Source of the DNA: an uncultured Oscillospiraceae bacterium
GTDB lineage: Bacteria; Bacillota; Clostridia; Oscillospirales; Oscillospiraceae
NCBI GenBank assembly: GCA_944385035.1
Contig: CALWVV010000002.1
Span: 62,001-126,000, forward strand
Reading direction: 5' to 3'
Length of the DNA: 64,000 nucleotides
The position numbers and the translations under genes were made by a program. The notes under the pieces are model-generated. The model did not search any database. It was not told the origin of the DNA and saw only the letters and a list, made by a program, of their open reading frames with translations. Below, in pieces: positions 3,962 to 63,985 of the stretch (position 1 is its first letter; the number at the start of each line of letters is the position of its first letter).

Positions 3962-5644
3962 ATGGCAACGATGTACGACTACCTATTTACATTGGCAGAG
4001 GACGGCGTTATCCAACAGGTGCAGTGCTCCCCCTCCGGCCAGCATCTTCCCATGTGGCAGGACAGCGCTGGCTGGGTCGGGCTTGTTCCGGAGGACCTTC
4101 CGAACACATTGTGGAATCATGCGTCCGGTTCGGTGATTTGGAACCAGATCCCGTTTCGGTTCACCCAGCTGCACCCCGCACCGGGTGTAAACTGTCTGCT
4201 GCTGCAGCGGGAAAATATGCGTGAAGCGCTGCTGGAGGGGACTTTGGACGTGATCCCGGATGGCATTCAAATTTATGATACCGCGGGAACCATACAATTT
4301 TTTAACCGCAGCACCCTTGATCTTCTGGAGTATTCCTCTTCCCGGCAGGTGGAGGGCCACAATCTGTTGGATATTTTTGCTGTGGACCCGGAATACAGCA
4401 CCACATTGGCCGCCCTGCATACCCATACTGCGGTGGTCGGGCGCGTGGATCAGTATAAATCCACCACTGGAAAGAACCTCGCGACGGTCAATACCGGCGT
4501 TCCTATTTTCAAAGATGGAGTGCTGCTGGGCTGTGTCTCCTTCGAGCGGGATATGAAGCTGCTGCAAAAAAATATTTCCAACTATCAGAATGTGCAGAAC
4601 ATTCTCCTTCGACACCTGCCCGCCTCCATGTCCAGCGCCCAGAGTACCCGCTATACCCTTCAAGATGTGGTTGGCTCCGATCCGCTGCTGATTGCTGCCA
4701 AAAATCTGGCGGCCAAAATGGCCCTGAAGGATATGAACATCCTGATTCAGGGAGAGACCGGAACCGGAAAGGAAATTTTTGCCCAGGGCATCCACAATCT
4801 GAGTTCCAGGAAGAATGAAAAATTTGTAGCCATCAACTGTGCTGCCTTTCCTGAAAACCTGATCGAAGGATTGTTATTTGGTACGGCAAAAGGGGCTTTC
4901 ACCGGCAGCACGGACAAAATGGGGCTGATTGAAGAGGCAAACCATGGCACATTGTTTTTGGATGAGCTCAATTCTATGAGTTTGAGTATGCAGGCCAAGC
5001 TTCTTCGAGTACTTCAGGAAAAAACTTTGCGCCGGGTGGGGGGGACGAAAAATATCCCCGTGGATATCCGGGTTCTTTCTTCCTGTAATGAAGATGCCTA
5101 TGCACTAAGCGAAAGCGGTGCGCTGCGGCGGGACCTCTTCTACCGCTTGGCCTCTGTGGTGGTGGAAATTCCTCCTCTGCGGGAACGGCTTGATGATATT
5201 CCCCAGCTGACCTGGCACTATATCCGTAAAAACCAGGAGCTATGCGTTCAGCCCATTACAGAAATTTCCTCTGACTTTTGGGAGCGGCTGCGTGCGCACC
5301 GTTGGCCGGGCAATGTGCGGGAGCTGTTCCATGTGCTGAGCTTTGCGCTCAGTGACTGTGAAAAAACTACGCTACGGGCGGAAAACCTGCCGGCCCGTTT
5401 TCATTCCCAATCGGAAGAGAACATCGAAGCGCTCTCGTTTCATTCTCCTTCCCCGCCGGATACGGCATATGATTTTGACCGCGGATTTTCCCAGCTGGTG
5501 AAGGAATATGAACGCCAGCTTTTACGGCAGGCCTATCTCTCCTGTGACCGCAATGCCACCCGTGCGGCGGAGCTTCTGAAAATCAGCAGACAAAACTTCC
5601 AGTATTATCTGAAAAAATACGACCTGAACCAAGATGAGTCATAA
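3962..5644 (+). CDS. PAS-domain sigma-54-dependent activator
   Basis: The 560-residue protein has an N-terminal region (~1-75), a PAS domain (~80-200, begins near DVIPDGIQIYDTAGTIQFFN), an AAA+ domain with Walker A GETGTGKE, the sigma-54 contact loop GAFTGS, Walker B GTLFLDE and WPGNVREL, and a C-terminal Fis-type helix-turn-helix. It uses ATP hydrolysis to open RpoN promoters. I chose the ATG at 3962 because it follows AAGGAG; the upstream in-frame TTG at 3914 lacks a site. It is divergent from the lyase-like operon, whose -24/-12 promoter it most likely activates. A small metabolite or redox signal through PAS is probable but unidentified. Confidence 0.95.
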   Translation: MATMYDYLFTLAEDGVIQQVQCSPSGQHLPMWQDSAGWVGLVPEDLPNTLWNHASGSVIWNQIPFRFTQLHPAPGVNCLLLQRENMREALLEGTLDVIPDGIQIYDTAGTIQFFNRSTLDLLEYSSSRQVEGHNLLDIFAVDPEYSTTLAALHTHTAVVGRVDQYKSTTGKNLATVNTGVPIFKDGVLLGCVSFERDMKLLQKNISNYQNVQNILLRHLPASMSSAQSTRYTLQDVVGSDPLLIAAKNLAAKMALKDMNILIQGETGTGKEIFAQGIHNLSSRKNEKFVAINCAAFPENLIEGLLFGTAKGAFTGSTDKMGLIEEANHGTLFLDELNSMSLSMQAKLLRVLQEKTLRRVGGTKNIPVDIRVLSSCNEDAYALSESGALRRDLFYRLASVVVEIPPLRERLDDIPQLTWHYIRKNQELCVQPITEISSDFWERLRAHRWPGNVRELFHVLSFALSDCEKTTLRAENLPARFHSQSEENIEALSFHSPSPPDTAYDFDRGFSQLVKEYERQLLRQAYLSCDRNATRAAELLKISRQNFQYYLKKYDLNQDES

Positions 5645-49951: not shown

Positions 49952-50892
49952 ACTCGGATAAAAATGTTAAAATCTATTTAGCGGGGCATCGTGGTGTTGC
50001 GGGGACCGCATGTTATGAGATACTAAAAGAAAATGGGTACTCTAACATTATTACAAGGACTCATTCAGAATTGGATTTGACGAATCAAAAGGCGGTATTT
50101 GATTTTTTTGCAGAGGAAAAACCTGAATGGGTTATTCTTTGTGCCGCACATATAGGAGGAATAGCTGATAAGGCAAAATTTCCTGCGGAATATATATACG
50201 ACAATTTAGCTATTGAGATGAATGTCATTGAAGCGGCACATAAAAATAAGACTAAAAAGTTGCTGTTTATGGGAAGTGCGTATGCCTACCCTATTACAGA
50301 GGAACCATCCAAAGAAGAAACCTTGTTCTCGGGAGAACATGGTAAACTGGATGAGCCGTATATTGTTGCGAAAATTGCCGGAGTAAAACTTTGCGAATAC
50401 TATTGGAAACAGTATGGGGATAATTTTTTCTCTGTAATGCCGTGTTGCTTTTTTGGAGAGGGAGATTCGTTTGATTTGACACGAGCTACTGTGGTTCCGT
50501 CAATGGTAAGGCGAATGAGTGAGGCAAAAGAGCGTGGGGATGAAGAATTTCCAATCTGGGGTACGGGAAAACCACTGAGAGAATTCCTGAGTAGTAAAGA
50601 TATCGCGAGAGGTTGCCTTTTCCTCCTTGAAAGATATAAAGGCGGAGGAGAGTACTTTAATCTGGGAAATGGAGGAGAATTAATCTCCATTGCTGAACTA
50701 GCAGGGATTATTCAACAGGTTGTTGGATATAAAGGAAAATTGATATTTGATTTGACTAAGCCTGATGGAATGAGAAAAAAAGTGCTTGATTCTACTAAAT
50801 TGATGAATTTGGGATGGAAACCCCAAGACTGCCTTGAGGACAGCGTGAAAGAATTATATTCATACTATATGAGGACAGCAAAAGGGAAGTGA
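49948..50892 (+). CDS. Fcl-like reductase lacking the epimerase residues
   Basis: 314 residues starting with TTG at 49948, overlapping the previous stop (AGGGGGA seven bases upstream). It is a paralogue of the preceding Fcl (AGHRGVAGTA, YIVAK with Tyr138/Lys142). The Cys that acts in epimerisation is replaced (GSAYAYP; Tyr112), and the H-x-H of HSHVIPAL reads RATVVPSM (Thr181 for the catalytic His). It should be able to reduce a keto group but not epimerise. It is followed by the split transketolase, so its substrate may be a branched keto sugar. Confidence 0.85.
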   Translation: MNSDKNVKIYLAGHRGVAGTACYEILKENGYSNIITRTHSELDLTNQKAVFDFFAEEKPEWVILCAAHIGGIADKAKFPAEYIYDNLAIEMNVIEAAHKNKTKKLLFMGSAYAYPITEEPSKEETLFSGEHGKLDEPYIVAKIAGVKLCEYYWKQYGDNFFSVMPCCFFGEGDSFDLTRATVVPSMVRRMSEAKERGDEEFPIWGTGKPLREFLSSKDIARGCLFLLERYKGGGEYFNLGNGGELISIAELAGIIQQVVGYKGKLIFDLTKPDGMRKKVLDSTKLMNLGWKPQDCLEDSVKELYSYYMRTAKGK

Positions 50893-51746
50893 AAAAAGTG
50901 CAATCAGAACAAACAATTGATCACTTGAAAAAAAAAGCAGCTCAGATTCGAATTGATATTTTGAATATGTGTGATCATGTAGGTGCTGGACATGTAACAT
51001 CTGGTTTTTCCTGTACCGAATTATTGGTTGCACTGTATGAGGGGAAAATTTTGCGCTGTGATCCCCGAAATCCAGATTGGGCTGCAAGAGATTATTTCAT
51101 TCTGAGCAAGGGGCACTCTAGTACAGCACTCTATCCTGTGTTAGCGGATATGGGGTTCTTTGGACGGGAAGAGCTCATGAAATGCTGTGATAAAGGAGAA
51201 ATGTTGGGTCTTTTGCTCAAAAAAGATGTTCCTGGTGTTGAAATATCGTCTGGTTCTCTTGGAATTGGCCTTGGTGTGGCTTCTGGCATTGCGCTGAGCT
51301 TAAAAATGGACCGTTTATCCAACTTGGTTTTTTGTATGTTGGGCGATGGCGAGTGCCACGAAGGGAATATTTGGGAATCTGCCATGTTTGCCAGCCAATA
51401 CAGACTGAACAATCTAATTGCAATTGTGGATCGAAACTATCTCTGCTGTACTGATTTTACAGAAAATATTATGTCGTTAGAACCTTTTTCTGCTAAATGG
51501 GAATCGTTTGGCTGGGAAGTAAAACACATCAACGGGCATAGTTTTGATCAGATATTTGAGGCGCTGGACAATGTTCACGCAATGAATAGAAATAAGCCCC
51601 TGGTCATTATTGCGGATACGGTAAAGGGGAAGGGTGTAGATTTTATTTCTAATGTTCCCTTAATGCATGGGGCTGCGGTCTGCGGAGAAAAATTGAAAGC
51701 GGCATATAGGTGTATTTCCCCTGGGGAGGAATGGACTGATGAGTAA
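50889..51746 (+). CDS. Transketolase N-terminal subunit
   Basis: 285 residues (GTG 50889, or GTG 50898), overlapping the previous gene by four bases. It covers the pyrophosphate-binding half: SKGHSSTALYPVLADMG, GSLGIGLGVASGIAL, and the TPP metal motif GDGECHEGNIWESAMFAS ending in IVDRN. The first His-Pro-Gly of transketolase is altered (GAGHVTSGFSC), hinting at a changed substrate. Split transketolases with N and C halves on separate genes occur in archaea and in secondary-sugar pathways. Here it is embedded in a GDP-sugar operon, not with pentose-phosphate genes. Confidence 0.9.
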   Translation: MKKVQSEQTIDHLKKKAAQIRIDILNMCDHVGAGHVTSGFSCTELLVALYEGKILRCDPRNPDWAARDYFILSKGHSSTALYPVLADMGFFGREELMKCCDKGEMLGLLLKKDVPGVEISSGSLGIGLGVASGIALSLKMDRLSNLVFCMLGDGECHEGNIWESAMFASQYRLNNLIAIVDRNYLCCTDFTENIMSLEPFSAKWESFGWEVKHINGHSFDQIFEALDNVHAMNRNKPLVIIADTVKGKGVDFISNVPLMHGAAVCGEKLKAAYRCISPGEEWTDE

Positions 51747-52671
51747 AAACTTCAGAGATATTTTTTGGGATCAGATATACATTGCCGCAAAAAATGATCG
51801 AAATGTAGTGGTTGTTTCCGCTGATTTAGGTGCAATTTCACTGGATCGCTTTCGAGAGGAATTGCCTGGACAATTCGTCAACACAGGAATAGCGGAGCAA
51901 AATGCGATTACAGTAGCAGCAGGTTTGGCTTTGCGAGGGAAAAGAGTCTTTGTATACGCAAATGCTCCCTTTATTCATATGCGTTGTTACGAACAAATCC
52001 GTTTGACTGCCTCTGGAATGTTGTTGCCAATGACAATTATTGGACAAGGCGCGGGATTTAGTTTTTGGGAATATGGTCCCACACATCATACATTAGAAGA
52101 TTATGGGAGTATGAGAATGCTTCCCAATATGAAAGTGTATGTGGCCTCAGATCCGGTGGTGACAGAAGCACTAGCGGAACATACACTGCACTGTGATCAT
52201 GCGTCCTATATCAGAATGGATAAATTGGCCCTGCCAGCATATCCCGATGAGAATAAAATTGATGTGGTTCAGGGATTCCGGACTTTTGGCGCGCCGAATG
52301 GAAAATTTCTTTTAGTTGGGTGCGGGAATATGGTACAACACGTTTCTGAAGCGGCAAAAAGAATTGAAGAGCAAGGAAACACGTGTAGTTGGGTTGATTT
52401 GTTTAGTCTGACTCCTGATATTTCGAAATTTGCAAAGATAATTTCAAATTTTGAAAAAATTGTAACAGTTGAAGAGCATGGAAAGATAGGCGGAATTGCA
52501 AGCCTTGTGAGTGAAGTGATGATTGAGCATCGAATTTGGAAGCCTATGAGAAAAATTGCATGTGATACGAGTTGTGGCTATTTCTATGGGTATGGCAGCA
52601 GAGAAAATGTTGAAGAACATTATGGACTAACCGTTTCCAATATTGTTCAGGAAACATTGACGCTTATATAA
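51739..52671 (+). CDS. Transketolase C-terminal subunit
   Basis: 310 residues, overlapping the N-terminal half by eight bases, which favours 1:1 synthesis. It holds the pyrimidine-binding domain with catalytic Glu (NTGIAEQNAITVAAGLAL), the THHTLEDYGSMRMLPNM loop and a C-terminal domain (VEEHGKIGGIASLVSE). With the previous protein it forms an active-looking TPP enzyme that would move a two-carbon ketol unit. In this context the likely acceptor is a 4-keto deoxysugar nucleotide; ordinary central-metabolism transketolase is the alternative. Confidence 0.9.
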   Translation: MSKNFRDIFWDQIYIAAKNDRNVVVVSADLGAISLDRFREELPGQFVNTGIAEQNAITVAAGLALRGKRVFVYANAPFIHMRCYEQIRLTASGMLLPMTIIGQGAGFSFWEYGPTHHTLEDYGSMRMLPNMKVYVASDPVVTEALAEHTLHCDHASYIRMDKLALPAYPDENKIDVVQGFRTFGAPNGKFLLVGCGNMVQHVSEAAKRIEEQGNTCSWVDLFSLTPDISKFAKIISNFEKIVTVEEHGKIGGIASLVSEVMIEHRIWKPMRKIACDTSCGYFYGYGSRENVEEHYGLTVSNIVQETLTLI

Positions 52672-52680
52672 GGAGAAATC

Positions 52681-53997
52681 ATGAATATCATACTTCTCTC
52701 CGGCGGCTCAGGCAAGCGCCTGTGGCCCCTGTCCAACGACATTCGTTCCAAGCAATTTCTTAAACTGTTTCAGGCTCCGGATGGAACCATGGAATCCATG
52801 GTTCAGCGGGTTTACCGCCAGATTCGGTCTGTTGACAGGCAGGCGTCCGTAGTAATTGCAACTGGAAAGGCTCAGATTTCCTCTTTACGCAACCAGCTGG
52901 GTGAGGACATTGATATTTCCCTGGAGCCCTGTCGCCGGGATACGTTTCCAGCTATTGCTCTGGCGACAGCCTACCTTCACCACATTAAGGAGGTTCCGGC
53001 GGAGGAGACGGTAGTGGTCTGCCCCGTGGACCCTTATGTGGAGGAGGACTATTTCCTGAAACTCCGGGAACTGGACCTTCAGGCCCGGAAGGGAGAGGCC
53101 AACCTGGTGCTGATGGGTATTGAGCCCACCTATCCCAGCGAAAAGTATGGCTATATCATCCCACAAGACAAGGGTGAAGTCAGTGCCGTGTCCACCTTTA
53201 AGGAAAAGCCGGATGTTGCCACTGCCCGGCGGTATATCAACCAAGGAGCGCTGTGGAACGGTGGTGTCTTTGCCTACCGGCTGTCCTATGTACTGGATAG
53301 AGCCAAAGAGATGTTTGGTACCAGTGACTATGACGAGTTATTTGCCAAGTATGAGTCACTAACAAAAATCAGCTTCGACTACGCTGTAGCGGAGAAGGAG
53401 CCCAATATTCAGGTTCTGCGTTTTGTGGGCCAGTGGAAAGACCTGGGCACCTGGAATACGCTGGCAGAGGAAATTGCGGAGCCCACTTTGGGCAACGTTA
53501 TTTTGGATAACACTTGCCAGAACGTCACCGCCATCAACGAACTGAATATCCCCATTCTGTGTATGGGGGTGAAAAACGCCGTGGTTGCCGCCAGCGGAGA
53601 CGGCATTCTCATCAGCGACCGGGACCGCAGTTCTTACATTAAGCCCTATGTGGACCAGATTATCTCGCCGGTGATGTTTGCGGAAAAATCCTGGGGCAGC
53701 TTTACAGTTCTGGATGTACAGGACGGTTCTATGACCATCCGTATCCGGCTGCGGCAGGGTAGCCACATCAACTATCACAGCCATGATCATCGAGACGAGG
53801 TGTGGACCATTGTCTCTGGACAGGGGCGCACTATTGTAGACGGGATGGAGCAGCCAGTTTCCCCGGGGGATGTAATTACTATGCAGGCGGGATGCCGCCA
53901 CACTATCCTGGCAGATACCGAGCTGACAGTTATTGAGGTACAGCTGGGGGAGGAGATTAGTGTCCATGACAAGCACAAATTCCCTTTCCCGTCCTAA
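52681..53997 (+). CDS. manC: Mannose-1-phosphate guanylyltransferase / mannose-6-phosphate isomerase (type II)
   Basis: 438 residues. The N-terminal nucleotidyltransferase has LSGGSGKRLWPLSNDIRSKQFLKL, FKEKPD and WNGGVFAY; a C-terminal cupin (SHINYHSHDHRDEVWTIVSGQG) carries the type II isomerase metal motif. It makes GDP-mannose from mannose-1-phosphate and GTP, supplying Gmd. The cupin is shorter than in E. coli ManC but has the metal His residues. Its stop lies inside the next gene, a 32-base overlap. Confidence 0.92.
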   Translation: MNIILLSGGSGKRLWPLSNDIRSKQFLKLFQAPDGTMESMVQRVYRQIRSVDRQASVVIATGKAQISSLRNQLGEDIDISLEPCRRDTFPAIALATAYLHHIKEVPAEETVVVCPVDPYVEEDYFLKLRELDLQARKGEANLVLMGIEPTYPSEKYGYIIPQDKGEVSAVSTFKEKPDVATARRYINQGALWNGGVFAYRLSYVLDRAKEMFGTSDYDELFAKYESLTKISFDYAVAEKEPNIQVLRFVGQWKDLGTWNTLAEEIAEPTLGNVILDNTCQNVTAINELNIPILCMGVKNAVVAASGDGILISDRDRSSYIKPYVDQIISPVMFAEKSWGSFTVLDVQDGSMTIRIRLRQGSHINYHSHDHRDEVWTIVSGQGRTIVDGMEQPVSPGDVITMQAGCRHTILADTELTVIEVQLGEEISVHDKHKFPFPS

Positions 53998-54970
53998 GCC
54001 CATATTTCTCACGCCGGTGGGAAAAGACTACCTATGGGGTGGGAATCGGCTCAACACGGAATTTGCCAAATCTATTGCCCTCTCGCCACTGGCCGAAACC
54101 TGGGAGTGTTCTACCCATCCCGATGGGGAGAGCGTAGTGGCCCTGGGGGAATTTGCCCACAAAACACTGCGCCAAGTGCTGTTGGAACACCCGGAGTACC
54201 TGGGGAGCCGCCATGAGAATTCCCGTGGGGAGTTGCCCATTCTGGTGAAGTTTATTGATGCTAAGCAGGACCTTTCGGTACAGGTTCATCCGGATGATGG
54301 ATATGCCGCCCAATACGAGGGGGGACAACGAGGCAAAATTGAGATGTGGTATGTGTTGGATGCCACTCCGCAGGCCACTTTGGTCTACGGCCTGCGCCGT
54401 ACTCTGACCCCGGAGCATCTCCGCTCAGCTATTTCCCAAGGATATTTGGAGCCGTATCTGCAACGGCTACCAGTCCATTCCGACGACGTGTTTTATCTGG
54501 ACGCCGGTACCATCCACGCCATTGGAAGCGGTTGCTTGGTGGCCGAAATCCAGGAGAACTCTAATCTAACTTATCGGCTTTATGACTATAACCGTACCGA
54601 TCGCGATGGAAATAGACGGACTCTCCATGTGGAAAAGGCTCTGGCAGTGGCCAACCTGCGGGCTACTGCACCCCCTCGGCAGCCTATCCGGCATTTGATT
54701 TACCGTCCCGGTTGTGCCCGAGAGCTGCTCAGCCGCTGCCGCTACTTCCAGGTGGAGCGGCTGCTGTTGAACACAGAACGGCTGAGGGAACGGCTGTGTC
54801 TGGAGACGGATGGCCTCTCTTTCCAGGTGCTGTTGTGTCTACAGGGTTGCGGCGCCCTGTCCAGCGCCGGAGAGACCTGGGACTTTTTCAAGGGGGACTG
54901 TATCTTTCTTCCCGCCAATACCCGGCTGCGTCTTCACGGAAACGCTCGTTTCCTTCTGGTGCGCTGCTGA
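53966..54970 (+). CDS. manA: Mannose-6-phosphate isomerase, class I
   Basis: 334 residues from the ATG at 53966. Typical ManA start (FLTPVGKDYLWGGNRLN), Zn ligands in QVHPDDGYAA and the Glu/His of GKIEMWYVLDA, AGTIHAIGSGCLVAEIQENSNLTYRLYDY. It interconverts fructose-6-phosphate and mannose-6-phosphate, the first committed step to GDP-mannose. It overlaps manC by 32 bases, so the pair are coupled. The role of the ManC cupin and ManA may be redundant. Confidence 0.93.
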   Translation: MTSTNSLSRPKPIFLTPVGKDYLWGGNRLNTEFAKSIALSPLAETWECSTHPDGESVVALGEFAHKTLRQVLLEHPEYLGSRHENSRGELPILVKFIDAKQDLSVQVHPDDGYAAQYEGGQRGKIEMWYVLDATPQATLVYGLRRTLTPEHLRSAISQGYLEPYLQRLPVHSDDVFYLDAGTIHAIGSGCLVAEIQENSNLTYRLYDYNRTDRDGNRRTLHVEKALAVANLRATAPPRQPIRHLIYRPGCARELLSRCRYFQVERLLLNTERLRERLCLETDGLSFQVLLCLQGCGALSSAGETWDFFKGDCIFLPANTRLRLHGNARFLLVRC

Positions 54971-55067
54971 GGCAGGAGAAGGGGGAGCAGCCCCTTCTTT
55001 GTCTGCACACAGAATTCTGCCCCGTCACAAGATATGCTGTCTGGTGGGGTGGTGAAAGGATGTCATT

Positions 55068-56753
55068 ATGAATCAGGAACACATTCAAGCGGAATATGAC
55101 CGCTGGCGCACTTTGGCAGACCCCTCCCTCCAGCGGGAACTGACGGAGATGGACGAGAAGACCATTACTAACGCCTTTTTCCGGAACCTGGAGTTTGGAA
55201 CCGGAGGCTTACGGGGGGAAATTGGTCCTGGAACTAATCGGATGAATATCCACACTGTGGCCAAAGCTACTCAAGGTTTGGCTGCCTATCTGCTCCGCAG
55301 TAAGGGAAGGGGGTGTGTAGCGATCAGCTATGATTCCCGGATCCTTTCGGATACGTTTGCCCGGGTAGCAGCGCAGGTATTCTCTTCCAATGGTATTTCC
55401 GTTTATCTTTATGACCGCCTGATGCCAACACCTTGCCTTTCCTTTGCGGTACGGGCTTTAGAATGTGTGGCTGGAGTTATGATTACGGCTTCTCATAACC
55501 CTGCACAGTACAATGGTTACAAAGTTTATGGGTCTGATGGCTGCCAGATTACCACTGAGACAGCAAACCAAATTTTGGCTGAGATTGAAAAGGTTGATTT
55601 GTTTGCTGACGTTGTGATCCAAGATTTTGAAGAGGCTGTAAAAAAAGGGGAAATCCGCTATGTTCCTGAATCCGTGCTGGATGACTATCTGACAGCGGTT
55701 AAGGCCCAGTCTCTGTTGGGCGATGAGTCAGTAGACAAGAGCTTTCCGATTGTCTATACTCCTCTCAACGGAACGGGCCGGGAGCCAGTGCTGCGAATAT
55801 TAAAAGAGTGCGGCTATGACCATGTGGTTACTGTTTCCCAGCAAGAAATGCCGGACGGCAGATTTCCTACCTGCCCTTATCCAAATCCAGAAGAACGTGA
55901 GGCTTTGTCATTAGGAATTTCCCGAGCTGGGGAAGTGGGTGCGGAACTTGTGCTGGCTACCGATCCGGACTGTGATCGGGTGGGTGCAGCTGTGCTGGAA
56001 GGAGAGGAGTATGTCCTTCTTACCGGCAATGAAATGGGACTTCTACTGTTGGACTATGTATGTACCAGACGAAAATCCCTGGGAATCATGCCGGCTCACC
56101 CTGTATTTATCAAGACCATTGTTACTAGTGAGCTGGGACGGAGAATTGCGGCGCTCCATGGAGTGGAGACCAAAGATGTGCTGACCGGCTTTAAGTTCAT
56201 TGGCGAGCAAATTGGGCTTTTGGAGCAGCAGGGGCGAGTGGATGATTATATTTTAGGCTTTGAGGAAAGCTACGGCTATTTATCTGGTTCCTATGTCCGA
56301 GATAAAGATGGTGTAGATGCGGCGCTGCTGATCTGTGAAATGACCGCTTACCACCGTGCCCGAGGTCTCTCGCTAATTGCTCGATTGGAAGAGCTATACC
56401 GGCAAGTAGGCTACTGCAAGAGCACCTTGCTCACATTTGCGTTTCCCGGTGCGGAAGGCTTTGAACGAATGCAGGGCATTATGGAAAGATTTCGTCAAGA
56501 GAACGGTTCGTTGGGCGAACATTCTATCGTACAGGTACTTGACTATACCGCAGGGATTGATGGACTTCCGAAATCCAATGTGCTGATGATTCAATTGGAA
56601 GATGAGAGCTGTGTGGTTATTCGCCCCTCTGGAACGGAACCAAAACTTAAAGCCTATTTTTCTGTTTACGGAAGCGATCGAGAGGTTGCCGAGGCAGAGA
56701 CTGAGAAGCTGCAACGGGAAATTCAGACGATTATAGAGTTCGGCGAAAAGTAA
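55068..56753 (+). CDS. Phosphoglucomutase/phosphomannomutase (PgcA-like)
   Basis: 561 residues, the long form with four domains. N-terminal FGTGGLRGEIGPGTNRMN, the catalytic phosphoserine loop MITASHNPAQYNGYK, the metal loop ATDPDCDRVG, sugar-binding GFEESYGYLSG and phosphate-binding IRPSGTEPKLKAYF. It probably converts mannose-6-phosphate to mannose-1-phosphate here, closing the route ManA, mutase, ManC; glucose phosphates are also likely substrates. It is the last gene of the polysaccharide operon and precedes the strong terminator. Confidence 0.93.
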   Translation: MNQEHIQAEYDRWRTLADPSLQRELTEMDEKTITNAFFRNLEFGTGGLRGEIGPGTNRMNIHTVAKATQGLAAYLLRSKGRGCVAISYDSRILSDTFARVAAQVFSSNGISVYLYDRLMPTPCLSFAVRALECVAGVMITASHNPAQYNGYKVYGSDGCQITTETANQILAEIEKVDLFADVVIQDFEEAVKKGEIRYVPESVLDDYLTAVKAQSLLGDESVDKSFPIVYTPLNGTGREPVLRILKECGYDHVVTVSQQEMPDGRFPTCPYPNPEEREALSLGISRAGEVGAELVLATDPDCDRVGAAVLEGEEYVLLTGNEMGLLLLDYVCTRRKSLGIMPAHPVFIKTIVTSELGRRIAALHGVETKDVLTGFKFIGEQIGLLEQQGRVDDYILGFEESYGYLSGSYVRDKDGVDAALLICEMTAYHRARGLSLIARLEELYRQVGYCKSTLLTFAFPGAEGFERMQGIMERFRQENGSLGEHSIVQVLDYTAGIDGLPKSNVLMIQLEDESCVVIRPSGTEPKLKAYFSVYGSDREVAEAETEKLQREIQTIIEFGEK

Positions 56754-56810
56754 GCCATCCGATTTTGGAAAACCCAACCAGCGAAGCTCAAGTGGAAATT
56801 TAAGCGGTTG

Positions 56811-56857
56811 ATAATAAGAACGCCCCCGCTGCACAGCAGCGGGGGCGTTCTTATTAT
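56811..56857. terminator. Strong bidirectional intrinsic terminator
   Basis: A perfect 22-bp stem with an ACA loop ends the polysaccharide operon. The A-rich left and T-rich right arms let it also stop the convergent CorC-type gene, whose stop codon lies within it. Confidence 0.9.
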
Positions 56858-58197
56858 GACAAATTTCCCGCGGGTTCTTTTTTGAGGGCGTCTTTGAGGT
56901 GTACCAGCGCGCTTTCCACCTGGTGGCCGTGGATGGAGGTCACATGGATGGCAAGACCGTATGTCTCCACCTCCACCGTGTCGCCGTCCTGGGGGATGAC
57001 GGCCAGGGCGCCGAACACCAGGCCGTTGAAGGTGTCAAACTTGTCGCAGGGCAGGGAGATTCCGAGAGCCTGGGCCACTTCGTCCAAGGGCGCTTCCCCC
57101 CGGATTTTCCAGGTGGAGGCGTCCAGTGCCTCCAGAAGGGGGAGAGGCTGGCTGCACAGTCCCTCATCGCCCAGGTCGCCCACCAGCTGCTCCACCAGGT
57201 CGTTGATGGTGACAATGCCAGTCATGCCGCCGTATTCGTCCAGCACCACCGCCAGGGGATGGTGGCCGCCCTTCATGTTGCGAAACAGCACATCGGCCTT
57301 CACACTTTCCGGAACAAAGTAGACTGGCTCTACGGCCCGCTCCATGACCGAGGCCCGGCTTTGATCCTTCAGCCGGAAGTAGTTCTCGGTGTTGAGAATA
57401 CCCACCACATCGTCGGCGGAATTTCCGCACACAGGGTAGCGGGTGTGGCGGCTATTATGGATGGTGCTGGCCCACTCCTCCATGGTCTCCTCCAGCCACA
57501 AGATGGTGAGGTCCGTGCGGTGGGTGGCAATCTCGCCCGCCGTGAGGTCATCAAACTCAAAGACATTCTGGATAAACTGCTTTTCTTCGTGGTCAATGGT
57601 ACCCTTTTGGGTTCCCACATCCACCATCATGCGGATTTCTTCCTCGCTGACGGTCTCCTCCTCGGCGTTAGGGTCAATGCCCAGCAGGCGGAGGACGGCG
57701 TTGGTGGAAACGGTTAAGAGCCATACGATGGGAGCAAAGAGCGTGGCGATGGTGGAAATGAGGCCGGAAATCCCCAGAGCCAGAGATTCCGCCTTGCGCA
57801 TGGCCACCCGCTTGGGCACCAGCTCGCCGAAGATCAGGGTAAAGTAAGACAGAATCAGGGTAATGATGACTACCGAGATGGCGTCCAAGGTGGCGGCGGG
57901 GACCCCTACGCCCAGGCTGACCAGCCAGCTGACCAAGCCGTCTGAGAAGTTTTCCGCCGCGAAGGCGCTGCCCAAAAAGCCGGACAGGGTAATGGCGACC
58001 TGAATGGTGGCAAGAAACCGGGCCGGCTGGCTGGTCAAGCGGGCAAGGCGCAGGGCGCGCTTATCCCCCTCCGCAGCCAGCTGGGCCAGCTTGGCGTCGT
58101 TGATGGAAATGACCGCAATCTCTGCGCTGGCAAATACGGCGTTCAGGGCGATCAAAAATACCTGCAAAAAAATCATAAACCAAATAGACTGTTCCAA
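56854..58197 (-). CDS. CNNM/CBS/CorC_HlyC membrane protein (hemolysin family)
   Basis: 447 residues from a TTG at 58197, eight bases after AAGGAGG; an upstream in-frame ATG lacks a site. N-terminal CNNM (DUF21) membrane domain with 3-4 segments (VFLIALNAVFASAEIAVISIN to ~190), two CBS domains (~215-330), and a CorC_HlyC domain with GGHHPLAVVLDEYGGMTGIVT. Relatives act in Mg2+ or other divalent-ion export. The leader region contains a small ORF and an intrinsic terminator (58239-58367), so expression is probably set by attenuation. Confidence 0.93.
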   Translation of the reverse strand: MEQSIWFMIFLQVFLIALNAVFASAEIAVISINDAKLAQLAAEGDKRALRLARLTSQPARFLATIQVAITLSGFLGSAFAAENFSDGLVSWLVSLGVGVPAATLDAISVVIITLILSYFTLIFGELVPKRVAMRKAESLALGISGLISTIATLFAPIVWLLTVSTNAVLRLLGIDPNAEEETVSEEEIRMMVDVGTQKGTIDHEEKQFIQNVFEFDDLTAGEIATHRTDLTILWLEETMEEWASTIHNSRHTRYPVCGNSADDVVGILNTENYFRLKDQSRASVMERAVEPVYFVPESVKADVLFRNMKGGHHPLAVVLDEYGGMTGIVTINDLVEQLVGDLGDEGLCSQPLPLLEALDASTWKIRGEAPLDEVAQALGISLPCDKFDTFNGLVFGALAVIPQDGDTVEVETYGLAIHVTSIHGHQVESALVHLKDALKKEPAGNLS

Positions 58198-58238
58198 TGT
58201 AAGCTCCTCCTTATGTATCCAAATCTGCAAAAAGACGC

Positions 58239-58284
58239 AAAAAGACACAGCCTGTCACGCTACTCACGCAGACGCAGGCTATGT
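58239..58284 (-). terminator. Putative attenuator in the CorC-type leader
   Basis: On the minus strand ACATAGCCTG (58284-58275) pairs with CAGGCTGTGT (58254-58245) over ten positions including one G-U. CTTTTT follows, then a second CTTTTT. The leader ORF stop lies in its loop, so ribosome position can decide whether it forms. Confidence 0.7.
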
Positions 58285-58367
58285 CCACTCCAAAGTTCTC
58301 TTTGGTTGCAGCAGCATAAGGGGGGCTGGGCGGGGGTGTTACTGTCACCGTCGTCCATACTCGCCAT
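58260..58367 (-). CDS. Leader peptide ORF upstream of the CorC-type gene
   Basis: 35 residues starting MASMDDGDSNTPAQPPL and containing three consecutive Cys codons. AAAGGAG precedes the ATG at good spacing. The ORF begins about 30 bases after the -10 box of a good promoter and its stop lies inside the attenuator loop. The placement is that of a regulatory leader peptide. A functional small protein cannot be excluded. Confidence 0.55.
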   Translation of the reverse strand: MASMDDGDSNTPAQPPLCCCNQRELWSGHSLRLRE

Positions 58368-58397
58368 CACGTTCTCCTTTCTCATCAAGTGGCTCAT

Positions 58398-58426
58398 ATC
58401 TTACCAAAGGGAAGAGGAACCGTCAA
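58398..58426 (-). promoter_or_regulatory. Sigma-A promoter of the CorC-type transcript
   Basis: On the minus strand TTGACG (58426-58421), a 17-base spacer, and TAAGAT (58403-58398). Confidence 0.75.
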
Positions 58427-58525
58427 CCAAAAACGCGCAATTTCCCGTATAGATTGTGTTCAGATTTTTGAATTCTTGATCTTTTTGCTGATCTTTCCCT
58501 CGCATGGAGAGGAGATGACAGCCCA

Positions 58526-58930
58526 GTGTGTATGGAAGCAAAGAAACACAGCAAGGTGGTGGAGCTCTGGCTCACACGGGACGAAACAAATGACCAGCAA
58601 TTCCTGGAATCCCTAAAGCCCCTCTATCGGCAGTATCAGGCGCAAAACTACATGGTAGCGGTATTTTATTCCGGGGAGGAAGACCTGTACCAGCAGACAC
58701 GGGACCTGCTCCTCTACAACCGCAGGAGAGCGGCGGAGAAGGAAGTGCAACAACAGAGGCAGCAGGCCATGGTCTTAAAAAATGGGGGAGGCAGTGCAGC
58801 TGCTTCCCCCGTGAATGTGTGGAACTATTTTGTTGGTCATTTTGAGGGGCGGCACGATCTATTAAAATGGAATCATGGAATGGACGGATTGTACAGCGGC
58901 AGCAAGGAGCGAAACATTTCGTTGACATAA
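58526..58930 (+). CDS. Small protein of unknown function, copy 1 (VELWLTRDE family)
   Basis: 134 residues from GTG 58526 (or ATG 58532). Residues ~8-72 match the protein at 59589 (VVELWLTRDE, FLESLKPLYRQYQAQNYMVAVFYSGEEDLYQQTRDLLLYNRRRAAE). After that, the frame runs on for ~55 residues through the terminator hairpin of the opposing gene, so the tail may be read-through after loss of an earlier stop. Both copies have GGAGAGGAGATGA the same distance upstream. I do not recognise the family; it is soluble, charged and helical. Confidence 0.65.
   Translation: MCMEAKKHSKVVELWLTRDETNDQQFLESLKPLYRQYQAQNYMVAVFYSGEEDLYQQTRDLLLYNRRRAAEKEVQQQRQQAMVLKNGGGSAAASPVNVWNYFVGHFEGRHDLLKWNHGMDGLYSGSKERNISLT
58777..58810 (-). 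terminator. Intrinsic terminator of the opposing membrane-protein gene
   Basis: On the minus strand an 11-bp stem (one G-U pair) is followed by TTTTTT. It lies within the plus-strand small gene, 62 bases past the membrane gene's stop. Confidence 0.75.
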
Positions 58931-59346: not shown

Positions 59347-59588
59347 ATACGAGGCCTCCGAGTTTTAGAGTTGCGCCAAATGAGACAGAGATTCGATACT
59401 GTTGTAGCGGTATATGTGTAAGAAACTGTGCTAGAGACAGATTATACAGAATAAGGTGATAGTTTTCGGTTACAAAAGTGCAGGTATAAGTTGATTTCAA
59501 TGTAATTAAATCGAATGATCTTGTCAAGGTCATGTGTGAATATTTCCTCTCAAAGTGGTGGAAAATACTGGAGAGGAGATGATGAACC

Positions 59589-59829
59589 TTTGCATATGAA
59601 CATCCGGGAGGATTGCAAGACCGTGGAGCTCTGGCTCAACAGGGAAGAGCGGGATGACCTAATGTTTCGGGAGTCCCTGAAACCTCTTTACCTACAGTAC
59701 AAAGAACGCAACTATCTAGTGGCCCTCTTCTTCTCGGGGGAGGAGGATCTCTATCTCCGCACCAGGGATCTGCTCCTCTATAACCGCCGCCGCACGGCCG
59801 AACGGGCAGTGGAACAGAAAAAAGTATGA
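59589..59829 (+). CDS. Small protein of unknown function, copy 2 (VELWLNREE family)
   Basis: 79 residues from TTG 59589, ten bases after AGGAG, or ATG 59595. TVELWLNREERDD, FRESLKPLYLQYKERNYLVALFFSGEEDLYLRTRDLLLYNRRRTAER matches copy 1 at 58526 nearly along its length. It ends soon after the shared part and is followed by a good terminator, so this copy shows the family's natural size. It lies directly ahead of the recombinase gene. Function unknown. Confidence 0.7.
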
Positions 59830-59898: not shown

Positions 59899-59968
59899 TT
59901 GCTATTTAAAAAAGAATGATTACAATGTTATCTGGATATATACATAGAAATTAAATCTACATTGTAAT
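59899..59968 (+). promoter_or_regulatory. Recombinase promoter with an overlapping 10-bp inverted repeat
   Basis: TTGCTA (59899-59904), 16 bases, TACAAT (59921-59926). The -10 box lies inside ATTACAATGT (59919-59928), whose exact complement ACATTGTAAT occurs at 59959-59968, just before the ribosome site. The arms could be two halves of a repressor site or an RNA hairpin hiding the start. Confidence 0.6.
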
Positions 59969-59978
59969 GGAGGAGACC

Positions 59979-62135
59979 ATGACTGAGACCTTTGCGCTGG
60001 CAGGTTACTGCCGCATCTCGGTGGACGACGAGTTGGAGAGGGACAACGTGTCCATCGAAAACCAGAAGGCCATCATCCAGGACTTCGTGAAGCACAAATT
60101 CCCCGGCAGCACCCTCACCTTCTATGAGGACCGGGACCGCTCGGGCTATACCTTCGAGCAGCGGGAGGGCTACCAGGCCATGCGCCGGGGGCTTATGAGC
60201 CACCAGTATGACATCCTTATCGTCAAGGACTTCTCCCGGTTTTCCCGGCGCAACAGCCGCGGGCTGGTGGAGCTGGAGGATTTACGGGACGCAGGGGTGC
60301 GGATTATCTCCATTGGGGACAACATCGACTTTCCCAACGACGACGAGTGGCTGAAAATTCAGTTTCAGTTCCTCATCAACGAGATGCCGGTGACCGACAC
60401 CAGCAAGAAGGTGAAAAACGTCATCAAGCGCCGCCAGGCGGACGGCAAGTGGATCTGTGCCGCCCCCTACGGCTACCTCATCAACAAGCGCCAGGAGTTT
60501 GAGATCGTCCCCACCGAGGCGGACATCGTCCGCACCATCTTCCGCCTCTATAACGAGGAGGGGTGGGGCTACAAGAAGATCGCCAACTACCTCACCGACC
60601 AGGGCATTCCCACCCCCCGCATGGCGGAGCGGGACCGGAAGGAGGCGGCGGGGGAGGAGTATAAGCGCCCGGTGAAGAACGTGTGGGCCATTGTCACCGT
60701 CCAGGGGATTTTGGACAACGACTTCTACATCGGCACCCTCCGTCAGGGCAAGTACACCCGGAAGAAAATCAACGGCAAGGATGTGCGCCAGGAGGAGGGC
60801 GAGCAAATCGTCATCGAGAACCACCACCAGGCCATTATCGACTACCGCACCTTCGCCACCACCCGTGCATTGCGGGAAAAGCGCACTACCTCCAACTACC
60901 GGGGGGTGAAAAAGTACGACAATGTGTACTCTGGCTTTCTCCAGTGCGGGGACTGCGGAGCTCCCATGTTCGCCATGAGCCGCCGGGAGCTGCGCCCGGC
61001 CTATCTCTGCGGCACCTACCACCGCCGGGGGCGGTCAGGGTGTTCCTCCCACCACATCCGCACCGACAAGCTGGACGAGCTGCTGAAAAGCTACGTCCGC
61101 CTGGTGATGGAGCACTCCCAGGAGCTGCTGGAACGGCTCAACGAGGACCTGTCCCACGAGCAGGAGGACGTGGAGGAGACGGAGGTGAGCGCCGACCGCC
61201 TGGCCGAGGTGTTAGCCGACCTTCAGGAGGAGCTGAAGGTGACCAAGCGCCAGCGCATTCGGGATCTGATGAAGCACCCGGAGCAGGAGGCGCTGCTCTC
61301 CGAGACCTACGACGAGCTGGAGGCCGACCTCCAAAAGAAGATCGAGGGCCTCAATCACCAGATCGATATGCTGGCCAACAAGCGCAATACCATCATCCAG
61401 GTGAACCGGGCGGCCCGGACGGCCCTGGAGGTCTTTGCCGACATCCTCCAAAAGGAGCACCTGGAGCGCACGGACCTGGAGCTGATGATCCGCAGCATCC
61501 GGGTCTTTGAGGACCACCTGGAAATTGAGCTTCAGTCAGACATCGACGCCATCCTCCGCGCCGCCCCCAGGGAGGACGCCGTAAATTTTAAGGGGGGCAT
61601 GGAGCATAGCGCAAACGTGACCGTCATCCAGTCCGCCGCCAAGCGGCCGGACAAGGTGTTCCATGCCAACGTTATCAGTGACGGTGACCCCTTGGAGATT
61701 TTCACCGATAAAGACGGGGGCGTCATTTTTAAAAAGTATTCCCTGATGGGGGGAGTGGTGGACTTCGCCGGGCAGCTGTGCGAGACCCTGAACCGGACCA
61801 CCGGAAAGCTCACCGTCATCACCGACCGGGACAGCTGTGTGGCTGTGGCCGGGGTCCCGCGCCGGGAACTGACGGACAAGCCCATTTCCCACCAATTGGA
61901 GCGGCTGATGGAGGGACGGCAGATTTATCAGTACAAGTCTGGGGAGGCACCCATTCCCCTGTGTGCCGACAGCGACAAGTTTGCCATCAGCATTGCAGCG
62001 CCCATTTTGTCCGAAGGGGACGTGCTGGGCTGTGTCCTCTTTGCCGGGGGACCTGACCAGCTGGGCGGCGGCGAAGTGGAGTATAAGCTGGCCCAGTCCA
62101 TTGCCGCCTTTTTGGGCCGGCATATGGAGAGCTAA
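59979..62135 (+). CDS. Large serine recombinase fused to a SpoVT-type C-terminal part
   Basis: 718 residues from the ATG at 59979 (GGAGGAG). Residues ~8-150 are the resolvase domain: catalytic Ser in GYCRISVDD, DRSGYTFEQREGYQAM, VKDFSRFSRR. The recombinase domain follows (~165-270), then a zinc ribbon (CGDCGAPM ... YLCGTYHRRGRSGC) and a coiled coil (~385-480). From ~569 to 718 it matches SpoVT from about its residue 30: GDPLEIFTDKDGGVIFKKYS, the GAF-like VITDRDSCVAVAGVPRRELTDK, and VEYKLAQSIAAFLGRHMES at the end. The first half of the AbrB domain is missing. The junction is in frame. See findings. Confidence 0.92.
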   Translation: MTETFALAGYCRISVDDELERDNVSIENQKAIIQDFVKHKFPGSTLTFYEDRDRSGYTFEQREGYQAMRRGLMSHQYDILIVKDFSRFSRRNSRGLVELEDLRDAGVRIISIGDNIDFPNDDEWLKIQFQFLINEMPVTDTSKKVKNVIKRRQADGKWICAAPYGYLINKRQEFEIVPTEADIVRTIFRLYNEEGWGYKKIANYLTDQGIPTPRMAERDRKEAAGEEYKRPVKNVWAIVTVQGILDNDFYIGTLRQGKYTRKKINGKDVRQEEGEQIVIENHHQAIIDYRTFATTRALREKRTTSNYRGVKKYDNVYSGFLQCGDCGAPMFAMSRRELRPAYLCGTYHRRGRSGCSSHHIRTDKLDELLKSYVRLVMEHSQELLERLNEDLSHEQEDVEETEVSADRLAEVLADLQEELKVTKRQRIRDLMKHPEQEALLSETYDELEADLQKKIEGLNHQIDMLANKRNTIIQVNRAARTALEVFADILQKEHLERTDLELMIRSIRVFEDHLEIELQSDIDAILRAAPREDAVNFKGGMEHSANVTVIQSAAKRPDKVFHANVISDGDPLEIFTDKDGGVIFKKYSLMGGVVDFAGQLCETLNRTTGKLTVITDRDSCVAVAGVPRRELTDKPISHQLERLMEGRQIYQYKSGEAPIPLCADSDKFAISIAAPILSEGDVLGCVLFAGGPDQLGGGEVEYKLAQSIAAFLGRHMES

Positions 62136-62175: not shown

Positions 62176-63507
62176 TTACAGGTAGTGATATTTGTTCCGC
62201 TTGCCGATGAGGAAGGCAATGGCCACCAGGGCCCCCAGTCCATCAGCGGCCACAACTGCAAGCCAGATTCCGTCCAGATCCAGCACCAGGGGCATGAGCA
62301 GAACCAGTCCGCCCCGGAACAGGAAGGAGCGCAGGAAGGACAACAGGGCAGAGATGGCCCCGTTGCACAGTGCGGTGAAGAAAGCGGAGCCGTAAATGCC
62401 AAAGCCGCAGAACAGATAGCTCAAGGCGAACAGCCGAAAGCCGTGGACCGTCATCTCCAGAAGCTCCGGACTATAGCCCACGAAGGCCATGGCCAGGGGA
62501 CGGCTTAAGAGTTCAGAGGCTGTCACCATGACCAGAGAGGAAATGGAGATGACCACCATGCTCTTTCGGAACACATTTTGAAGCTCCGGGTGGTTGGCAG
62601 CTCCATAGTGGTAGCTGACGATGGGGCCGCTGCCCATGGAGAAGCCCAGGAAGGCGGCTACAAAGGCAAAGTCCACATACATCATCACCGAGTAGGCAGC
62701 AACACCGGATTCGCCGATCATGCGCATGAGCTGAAGGTTATAAAGTACGCTGACGATGGAGGAGGACAGGTTGCTCATAAGCTCGGAGGAGCCGTTGAGA
62801 CAGGCGTTTTTCAGTTCCCGCCCATAGAAGCGGGTATTTGTGAGGTGAAGAGTACCCTTGGTGGGACGGAAGAAGTAGAGCAGGGGGAGAAGGCCGCCCA
62901 CTGCGTAGCCCATCACGGTGGCCCAGGCGGCCCCGGCCACTCCCATTTGGAGCGGGCCGATGAGCACATAGTCCAGCACCATGTTGGTAAGGCCGGAGCA
63001 CAGGGAGAAAAATAACCCCTTCTGAGGCTGTTCAGCCACCACGAAAAAGACCTGGAAGGAGACCTGGAGCATAAACACCACGCTGCCTCCCAGTAAAATC
63101 CGGCCATAGGCGATGCAGTCCTCCATCAGAAGGTCGCTGGCCCCCGCCAGATGGGCGATGGGTTCAATAAACACCACGGAGAAAATGGAAAACACCAGGC
63201 CCAGGCCCAGGACACAGTAGATGATCATGGAGAAGTAGCGGTTGGCCAGCTCCTGCTTTCCCTCACCCATGGTCCGGGCCACAATGGCCCCGCCTCCGGT
63301 GCCCAGCATAAAGCCGAAGGAGGCCAGGATCATGGAGATTGGAAACATGATGTTTACGGCGGAAAGGGCCAGTTCTCCAATCAGATTGGAGACGAACAGC
63401 CCATCCACCACACTGTAGATGGAAGAGACTACCATCATCACGATGGAGGGAAGGGTGAAGCGCAGCAATTTGCTGTAAGTGAAATGGTCCGAAAGTTTAA
63501 TCTGCAT
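62176..63507 (-). CDS. MATE family efflux transporter
   Basis: 443 residues with 12 membrane segments in two halves. MATE features: SIVMMVVSSIYSVVDGLFVSNLIGELALSAVNIMFPI, FMLGTGGGAIVARTMGEGK and the second-half equivalent FLGFSMGSGPIVSYHYGA. It exports cationic drugs or metabolites with Na+ or H+. It overlaps the MarR gene by 11 bases and its ribosome site (AGGAGG) is inside that gene, so the pair form an operon ended by the terminator at 62134. Confidence 0.95.
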   Translation of the reverse strand: MQIKLSDHFTYSKLLRFTLPSIVMMVVSSIYSVVDGLFVSNLIGELALSAVNIMFPISMILASFGFMLGTGGGAIVARTMGEGKQELANRYFSMIIYCVLGLGLVFSIFSVVFIEPIAHLAGASDLLMEDCIAYGRILLGGSVVFMLQVSFQVFFVVAEQPQKGLFFSLCSGLTNMVLDYVLIGPLQMGVAGAAWATVMGYAVGGLLPLLYFFRPTKGTLHLTNTRFYGRELKNACLNGSSELMSNLSSSIVSVLYNLQLMRMIGESGVAAYSVMMYVDFAFVAAFLGFSMGSGPIVSYHYGAANHPELQNVFRKSMVVISISSLVMVTASELLSRPLAMAFVGYSPELLEMTVHGFRLFALSYLFCGFGIYGSAFFTALCNGAISALLSFLRSFLFRGGLVLLMPLVLDLDGIWLAVVAADGLGALVAIAFLIGKRNKYHYL

Positions 63508-63985
63508 TGGAAACAGGATCCTCCTGAGAATTTTGTTGCAAAAGGGGGCGGGCTGCCTGGCGCAGCAGCTCCAGATACCGGCCGTTGAGGCGGAGCAGGG
63601 TTTGCCGCTCTTCGGGACTGAGTCCCTGATAAGCCAGCTCCTCCATACGGAAGACGGGGTGGATGGTGCGCTGGATCAATTCCATGCCCAGAGGGGTCAG
63701 GGTCAAATGCTTTCCCCGCTGCTTTCCGTGAGAGGTCTCCAAACGGATGTAGCCGGAGTCGGACAAGCCCTTTAGGGCGGAGTTGATCGTCTGCTTGCTG
63801 AGACATGATATTGCGCACAGCTCAGCCTGGGTAACTGCCTGGTCAGACTCCTCCAGGATATATAAAATCCAAAAGGCCGTGTCCGACAGTCCAAAGCTCT
63901 TGGCCAGGGCGTGGTACAGGCTGTTGTCCTCCTTAATAAGGGAGTTATACGCGGTAATAAACTGGGAAAAGGTCATGTCTTCCAT
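63497..63985 (-). CDS. MarR family transcriptional regulator
   Basis: 162 residues, with a winged helix (~40-110: AFWILYILEESDQAVTQAELCAISCLSKQTINSALKGLSDSGYIRLE, then the wing GKQRGKHLTLTPLG). It likely represses the MarR-MATE operon and releases on binding a toxic compound. AGGAGG precedes the ATG at 63985. The promoter lies at or beyond the window end. Confidence 0.92.
   Translation of the reverse strand: MEDMTFSQFITAYNSLIKEDNSLYHALAKSFGLSDTAFWILYILEESDQAVTQAELCAISCLSKQTINSALKGLSDSGYIRLETSHGKQRGKHLTLTPLGMELIQRTIHPVFRMEELAYQGLSPEERQTLLRLNGRYLELLRQAARPLLQQNSQEDPVSNAD

Follow-up and report, generated by a model that had tools for sequence, protein, structure and literature searches.

We propose that the recombinase-SpoVT fusion protein encoded in this 64,000-nucleotide stretch of DNA (the window, G000:C2:62001-126000, from a genome of 2.52 Mb in 53 contigs) is very probably the product of insertion by a family of mobile elements, each with a large serine integrase, that sit in the sporulation gene spoVT and carry their attP inside the integrase gene itself. 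What the sequences contain, and what this reading rests on, are half-sites, an empty site, a symmetrical attP, recurrent insertion, fusion halves that evolve independently of each other, coding constraint on the integrase tail, and one attP junction.

The original prediction described a serine recombinase running in frame into SpoVT from GDPLEIFTDK on, and the single open frame and its Pfam matches (Resolvase at residues 12-162, Recombinase at 182-306, Zn_ribbon_recom at 321-378 and SpoVT_C at 599-721, the last with E = 1.3e-34) bear this out. The start proposed for it, 59979, is an in-frame ATG, though the second one, the first being at 59967. The NCBIfam spore_V_T alignment begins at profile position 25 and scores 128 bits against a cut-off of 235.9, as expected because the protein is partial, and the SpoVT part aligns with residues 31-177 of the solved B. 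subtilis SpoVT (2W1T), in agreement with the claim that some 30 N-terminal residues are missing. Ser18 of the recombinase, which we take to be the position of the catalytic serine in this family, is invariant in all 35 of 35 aligned proteins. Along with the Resolvase, Recombinase and zinc-ribbon domains, the protein has the coiled coil of the large serine integrases, seen as long helices at 385-495 in an AlphaFold model of the fusion. The mean pLDDT of this model is 70, with the SpoVT blocks within 601-720 at 82-91 and the junction at 571-592 below 50; its top Foldseek matches are serine integrases bound to DNA, although its poor overall quality keeps the whole-model TM down at 0.15-0.22, and it says nothing on gating by the SpoVT tail.

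The 5' part of spoVT, which the original prediction did not find in the window, is located about 19 kb to its left. Searching for AbrB-type domains revealed half of one at G000:C2:42932, within a 5' spoVT piece on the same strand as the fusion (codons 1-33, G000:C2:42914-43012); it translates as MKATGIVRRIDDLGRVVIPKEIRRTMRIREGDP then SQTTWSWWEGFCFGMLDLHERRGW then a stop, that is, spoVT codons 1-33 and 24 more codons. No intact spoVT was found in this genome, 89.5% complete, in which the fusion is the only SpoVT_C match. The attL and attR cores are 80,679 bp apart (Table 1). Nine inserts have both ends on one contig, and in 9 of 9 the 5' piece is upstream on the same strand, with core-to-core sizes running from 15.6 to 80.7 kb (G012 15,604 bp; G020 15,962; G073 17,316; G061 17,895; G022 19,817; G060 20,180; G063 22,088; G077 24,381; G000 80,679); that of G060, R. 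bicirculans 80/3, is on chromosome II. The spoVT reading frame is split and the element's own site-specific recombinase lies beside the attachment site, two properties of sporulation gene-intervening elements. An element in spoVT with its recombinase at the right attachment site near 61,680 was the simplest reading offered by the original prediction, and the upstream fragment on the same strand and the lack of another SpoVT_C match agree with it, as do the core repeats, the palindromic arms, an empty/occupied pair of genomes and a natural attP in a relative, considered below. The opposite pattern, an intact spoVT elsewhere with no 5' fragment and no element boundaries, which had been named as the mark of a stable fusion, is not what this genome holds.

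Table 1. Features of the spoVT insert and its surroundings; positions are those of the window unless a contig is given.
Feature	Position	Strand	Remarks
attL (spoVT codons 1-33 + recombinase tail, 57-aa ORF)	G000:C2:42914-43087	same as fusion	outside window
attL core GGCGACCC	G000:C2:43004-43011		outside window
Right arm of attP, starting at left end of element	G000:C2:43012-43033		
Right three quarters of 80.7-kb insert	1-61687	.	remainder and attL lie up to 19 kb left of base 1
Second small ORF, similar to 59515-59829	58526-58930	+	similarity by eye
Small conserved ORF upstream of recombinase	59515-59829	+	104 aa; without Pfam match
Recombinase-SpoVT fusion ORF, formed at attR	59967-62135	+	single open frame, 722 aa, ATG 59967
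Large serine recombinase part	59967-61682	+	Pfam domains
Left arm of attP, within recombinase reading frame	61661-61682	+	17/22 match to right-arm reverse complement
attR core GGTGACCC	61683-61690	+	core repeat
Predicted crossover dinucleotide GA	61686-61687	+	inferred from symmetry centre
3' part of spoVT (residues 31-178, GAF-type C-terminal domain) plus stop	61683-62135	+	
Right chromosomal flank: MATE-type exporter and MarR-type regulator	62176-63985	-	named by eye; common to sisters G001, G031

The clearest view of the site before and after insertion comes from two genomes, G012 (complete, one contig), which is occupied by the 15.6-kb insert at the same codon as G000, and G015, in which spoVT is intact and the site empty. 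Their flanks are collinear, the left ones 87.0% identical over 5.9 kb and the right ones 86.3% over 3.5 kb, and the left and right alignments overlap by 17 bp at the core. Both sides also match between G028, which is occupied, and G014, whose spoVT is intact, but in G014 the match on the left is about 5 kb away from spoVT. The sister genomes G001 and G031 have both flanks of the G000 insert and different genes in the first 1.5 kb past attL.

Short core repeats, as looked for at both junctions, are present, with a consensus across loci of GGNGACCC; the attL core of G074 differs (GGCGACAC). The left arm of attP, with which the recombinase gene ends on its 3' side, has in many loci a sequence close to TGTCAATGTTATCAGTGAC. 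Over the 26 genomes with both ends read, the two arms match on average at 15.9 of 22 positions in register and at 3.2-6.3 out of register, and the best arm score is at least 12 in 25 of the 26, the exception being G077 (8/22); palindromic sites with a short common core are what large serine integrases use. The fusion at G077:C20 (L091) is without a recognisable attP left arm and reads FARVEGDPLEI across the junction; an exchange with spoVT sequence has perhaps altered it. The recombinase tail found at attL is 23-28 aa long in 24 of 27 loci, and in the 146 pairs with identity above 60% its pN/pS ratio is 0.47 in frame but 1.01 and 0.92 when read in either of the other frames. This length together with the in-frame constraint indicates that the natural C-terminus of the recombinase is encoded beyond the crossover and that the gene ends are exchanged reciprocally. 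As we read these sites, attP is inside the recombinase frame, and recombination would trade a conserved tail of about 26 residues for the SpoVT GAF domain.

Let us consider how such an element would work. The integrase would be specific to one spoVT codon site, GGN GAC CCN (Gly-Asp-Pro), and its attP, placed in frame inside the 3' end of its own gene, would recombine with attB in a reciprocal exchange of gene ends. At attR the integrase would then drop its own tail and gain SpoVT residues 31-178, while at attL spoVT would retain its upstream region and first 33 codons and gain the integrase tail, making the 57-aa ORF of G000; SpoVT would be broken by the integration. By excision (attL x attR), spoVT would be rebuilt and the integrase would recover its own tail in the same step. 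Presumably the same integrase would catalyse both directions, excision probably needing a directionality factor, and a link of excision to sporulation may be supposed as well. The 104-aa ORF upstream of the recombinase is, by its position only, a candidate for the directionality factor (RDF); a similar ORF precedes the recombinase in five of the eight other elements by ORF clustering, and tblastn adds G012 and G022.

A pattern of attP with up to three mismatches, scanned over 64 genomes of the genus, gave two matches, one an attL look-alike in G006 and the other, with one mismatch, at G366:C46:73-100. This 10,854-bp contig (L252) starts inside a recombinase gene, runs from VISDGDP into SLTTLE and TGA, followed by WKRFCFGILDLAKRSGL, and continues into left-end cargo, including a 3397-aa protein whose end resembles S-layer domains by eye; the attP arms match at 17 of 22 positions, and the tail contains a stop codon. 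Judged from its sequence, this is the junction of a circle or of a tandem, and either would require the joining of element ends. The attP form was not found in the IMG/VR, phage or plasmid collections, searched in the case of IMG/VR with one pattern that would miss the G366 site. The one IMG/VR match to the attP left arm, considered as a circular form, proved to be a fusion. Sequence MT839487 and the IMG/VR locus L219 end in or at an attP arm, which is suggestive only.

Some assembly oddities at spoVT may be mentioned here. Contigs of G010 (C158/C175) and G027 (C144/C153) end within spoVT at GGCGACC..GGAGATCTACAC (GGCGACCC..GGAGATCTACAC), and we considered these breaks as evidence of mixed states. 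The spoVT stretch ending GGAGATCTACAC, however, resembles what we take to be the Illumina P5 adapter, and the end of one contig looks like what is presumably the Nextera adapter; given this resemblance, the breaks are probably trimming artefacts. Contigs C30 and C46 of G033 (L130, L024) have exactly 141 bp in common, beginning with the attB core, which makes a fork in the assembly graph; no close recombinase was found in that bin, the best being 29%.

A search that used the fusion itself as query gave 135 relatives, and the join was followed in the best 79 of them; fusions are for that reason over-represented, and the set shows that the join is conserved, not its frequency. Among the 78 loci that reach the junction (L124 ends before it and was left out), the in-frame join is present in 74, 64 in one scan and ten more in another (L058, L070, L085, L090, L097, L105, L106, L107, L112, L125), which is not chance; the other four are L110 (unfused), L113 and L119 (altered at the junction) and L118 (frameshift further up). 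In all 74, the SpoVT half is open as far as the contig extends. Within the genus, 31 of 37 genomes (G000 included) have a SpoVT_C match and 17 of these 31 carry the fusion, as judged from the length of the open frame and, in G019, G030 and G032, from the sequence. A separate 5' piece is present in 11 of the 17 carriers (G000, G001, G003, G006, G012, G019, G020, G022, G025, G028, G031), matching residues 8-33 only in G022, and was not found in the other six, all drafts (G016, G026, G030, G032, G034, G035); G008 has the attL piece without a SpoVT_C match. Among 18 named genomes, 17 hold the fused locus and 16 of these 17 the 5' piece, which was not found in G076; in the one genome left, G075, spoVT is intact and L110 unfused. 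The recombinases found in G004, G024 and G029, in which spoVT is intact, and in G033, in which it is intact over the two overlapping contigs, reach 32% at the closest. Across the order, 257 of 295 genomes have SpoVT_C, and among the matches listed 16 lie in open frames of at least 586 aa, under eight family codes, with the frames read for G000 only. The bin of G026 holds an intact spoVT and a fusion (C168 and C77), the two copies 82% identical over 773 bp, and is perhaps mixed.

The conservation of the in-frame join in 74 of 78 loci, whose recombinases range down to about 52% identity with the G000 protein, might by itself suggest a stable fusion that gave a vertically inherited recombinase the SpoVT GAF domain as its dedicated sensor. 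We consider this extremely improbable. Over 70 fused proteins (2415 pairs), recombinase and SpoVT identities correlate with a Spearman coefficient of 0.60, and the two halves are decoupled in both directions: G012 and P. capillosus share 88% identity in the recombinase versus 45% in SpoVT, G000 and G020 54% versus 79%. In a SpoVT tree of 105 rows (74 fused, 25 intact, six short and unlabelled), fused and intact proteins interleave with 16 changes, at least 10 of them forced by well-supported branches, although shuffled labels need 22.5 changes, so that the fused label is somewhat clustered. Since the halves evolve independently and fused and intact forms interleave, a stable vertical fusion, one of the alternatives raised at the outset, is rejected; the existence of attL fragments and of an empty site likewise speaks against it. 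The further suggestion of a recurrent fusion in this lineage holds as to recurrence, but what recurs is insertion rather than fusion.

The cargo of the inserted elements varies. That of G012 includes two SLH proteins, a LuxR-type regulator, AAA_25, a MobA/VirD2 relaxase and RhuM; G022 carries Druantia DruE and a weak DruD, G061 type I restriction-modification, G060 a protein kinase and a PP2C phosphatase, G077 a TIR protein and a DNA polymerase III alpha-like protein, and G020 a histidine kinase and, by eye, a 1592-aa SLH-like protein. In G000 we find a peptidase-C39 ABC exporter, a 2795-aa protein with an SLH domain, two aromatic lyases, SSF and DctM transporters, polysaccharide genes and CNNM/CorC. 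Very large surface-type proteins (SLH/LPXTG-like ends, partly by eye) recur in the left parts of G000, G012, G020, G063, G073 and G366. The relaxase of G012 is PF03432, and members of its ORF cluster occur in G022 and G073; none of the 18 G000 proteins scanned matched a relaxase, and no phage structural genes were found among 38 Pfam-scanned proteins, which make up only part of the elements.

The large G000 insert is composite and may have been built by serial integration. A second left-end copy, with core and recombinase tail (88 bp, 88.6% identical), is present at G000:C2:58617-58704, 3.3 kb left of the window, preceded by unrelated DNA. The right interior, 50889-58600, is missing as a block from 40 other genus genomes (longest other match 610 bp, 66%) and is therefore probably acquired DNA. 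There are also internal repeats, window 2098-3660 repeating C2:58801-60363 at 80% and 4256-5391 repeating C2:60965-62100 at 73%, and both aromatic amino acid lyase genes lie within the insert.

What the insertion means for the host is a separate question. A serious possibility, which we nevertheless hold to be somewhat short of probable, is a mostly one-way disruptive insertion, spoVT being a convenient conserved target whose loss would leave carriers sporulating poorly or not at all, with selection maintaining transfer and cargo only. Large serine recombinases have been described as disrupting target genes (PMC10083194), and the composite insert and the lack of an intact spoVT in G000 point the same way; the SpoVT half that remains open in the 74 in-frame loci and the joined element ends at the G366 attP, however, do not fit easily with it. 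The other possibility, to our minds an unlikely one but not negligible, is that of a skin-type developmental switch, in which the element would be excised on cue in sporulation and spoVT rebuilt. The attachment sites are precise and frame-keeping, G000 retains spo0A (Spo0A_C is found in 40 of 41 genus genomes) and a sigG-type gene (422 bits versus a cut-off of 457 that none of the 41 reached), and the presence of the fusion in over half of the genus genomes with SpoVT_C would be hard to explain if spores were always lost. A forespore-type promoter motif, written to what we take to be the consensus, is present in 33 of 55 distinct spoVT upstream regions (18 of 29 scripted as intact, 15 of 26 scripted as split) against 2.3% of single-base shuffles, but the motif was written after viewing some of the same sequences, the script mislabels at least three loci (L139, L184, L143), and no match was found upstream of spoVT in G000 and its sisters (L011, L136, L142). 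We know of no sporulation phenotype for these hosts.

In C. difficile, spoVT is under forespore sigma factors and a spoVT mutant gave no heat-resistant spores (PMC3789822), which favours a switch; SpoVT is forespore-expressed in Bacillus as well, and has a GAF domain (PMC5061766). The known intervening elements, in contrast, are described as sitting, with few exceptions, in genes of the mother cell, which leaves the element in place in the spore (PMC6957869, PMC4191935), and this counts against a switch here. Because spoVT is a forespore gene in the species studied, unlike skin-type targets, a switch would have to act in the germ line, and the excised circle would then be lost, or carried in the spore and reinserted. 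One might go further and imagine the tail swap as a state sensor: with its own tail the protein would act as the integrase, and with the SpoVT GAF tail it would gate excision on SpoVT's own signal. We find this improbable as a whole, even if some functional effect of the swapped tail is plausible by analogy, since an RDF fused to an integrase makes a protein favouring attL x attR (PMC5737554) and RDFs have been modelled on the C-terminal region of recombinases (PMC10747680). Were it true, the forespore regulator would be returned in a germ-line cell and the spore would carry the element in circular form, contrary to the mother-cell rule for skin-type elements.

Irrespective of its regulation, the spoVT insertion has its closest known parallels in the sporulation gene-intervening elements, skin in sigK, SPbeta in spsM, vfbin in spoVFB, vrin in spoVR, gin in gerE and yin in yabG, of which gin is likewise described as without phage genes (PMC5595907, PMC4191935, PMC6957869, PMC10747680). 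It shares with them its own serine recombinase, a split sporulation gene, core repeats and inverted arms, and its precise excision would rebuild the gene. Unlike them, it targets the gene of a forespore regulator, its recombinase frame crosses the attachment site and acquires the target's domain, and it occurs in several Oscillospirales-type lineages. The SSV1-type archaeal integrases also carry attP in the integrase gene, where integration splits the integrase, whereas here the frame is open on both sides. In mycobacteriophage BPs, with its integration-dependent immunity, attP similarly lies in an element reading frame whose C-terminus is altered by integration, but the BPs repressor is shortened and here the integrase gains a host domain (PMC4557955). 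The gut IME_Rho_tet resembles our elements in its serine recombinase and, as in G012, a relaxase, in its gut Bacillota hosts and its insertion in a small conserved ORF, and differs in its main target, MAFF2 ORFs rather than spoVT; the words sporulation and fusion are absent from the main text of that paper (PMC12904643). At the level of titles and abstracts in the open-licence PMC literature, we found none on an element in spoVT or a recombinase-SpoVT fusion.

Insertion would explain an odd fusion protein of many gut genomes and supplies candidate att sites for an integrase family with one conserved target codon. In one gut genus, a key spore regulator is joined to an insert in 17 of the 31 genomes with a SpoVT_C match, which bears on which gut bacteria form spores and so transmit. 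With an integrase and a host regulator trading ends reciprocally and in frame, it would become directly testable how integrases sense their integrated state. If excision is regulated, these elements would represent a gene-reconstitution switch in a forespore gene, outside the accepted rationale of loss only in the dying mother cell. A puzzling fusion protein would in that case become a testable genetic switch, with related elements using the same codon in many gut bacteria.
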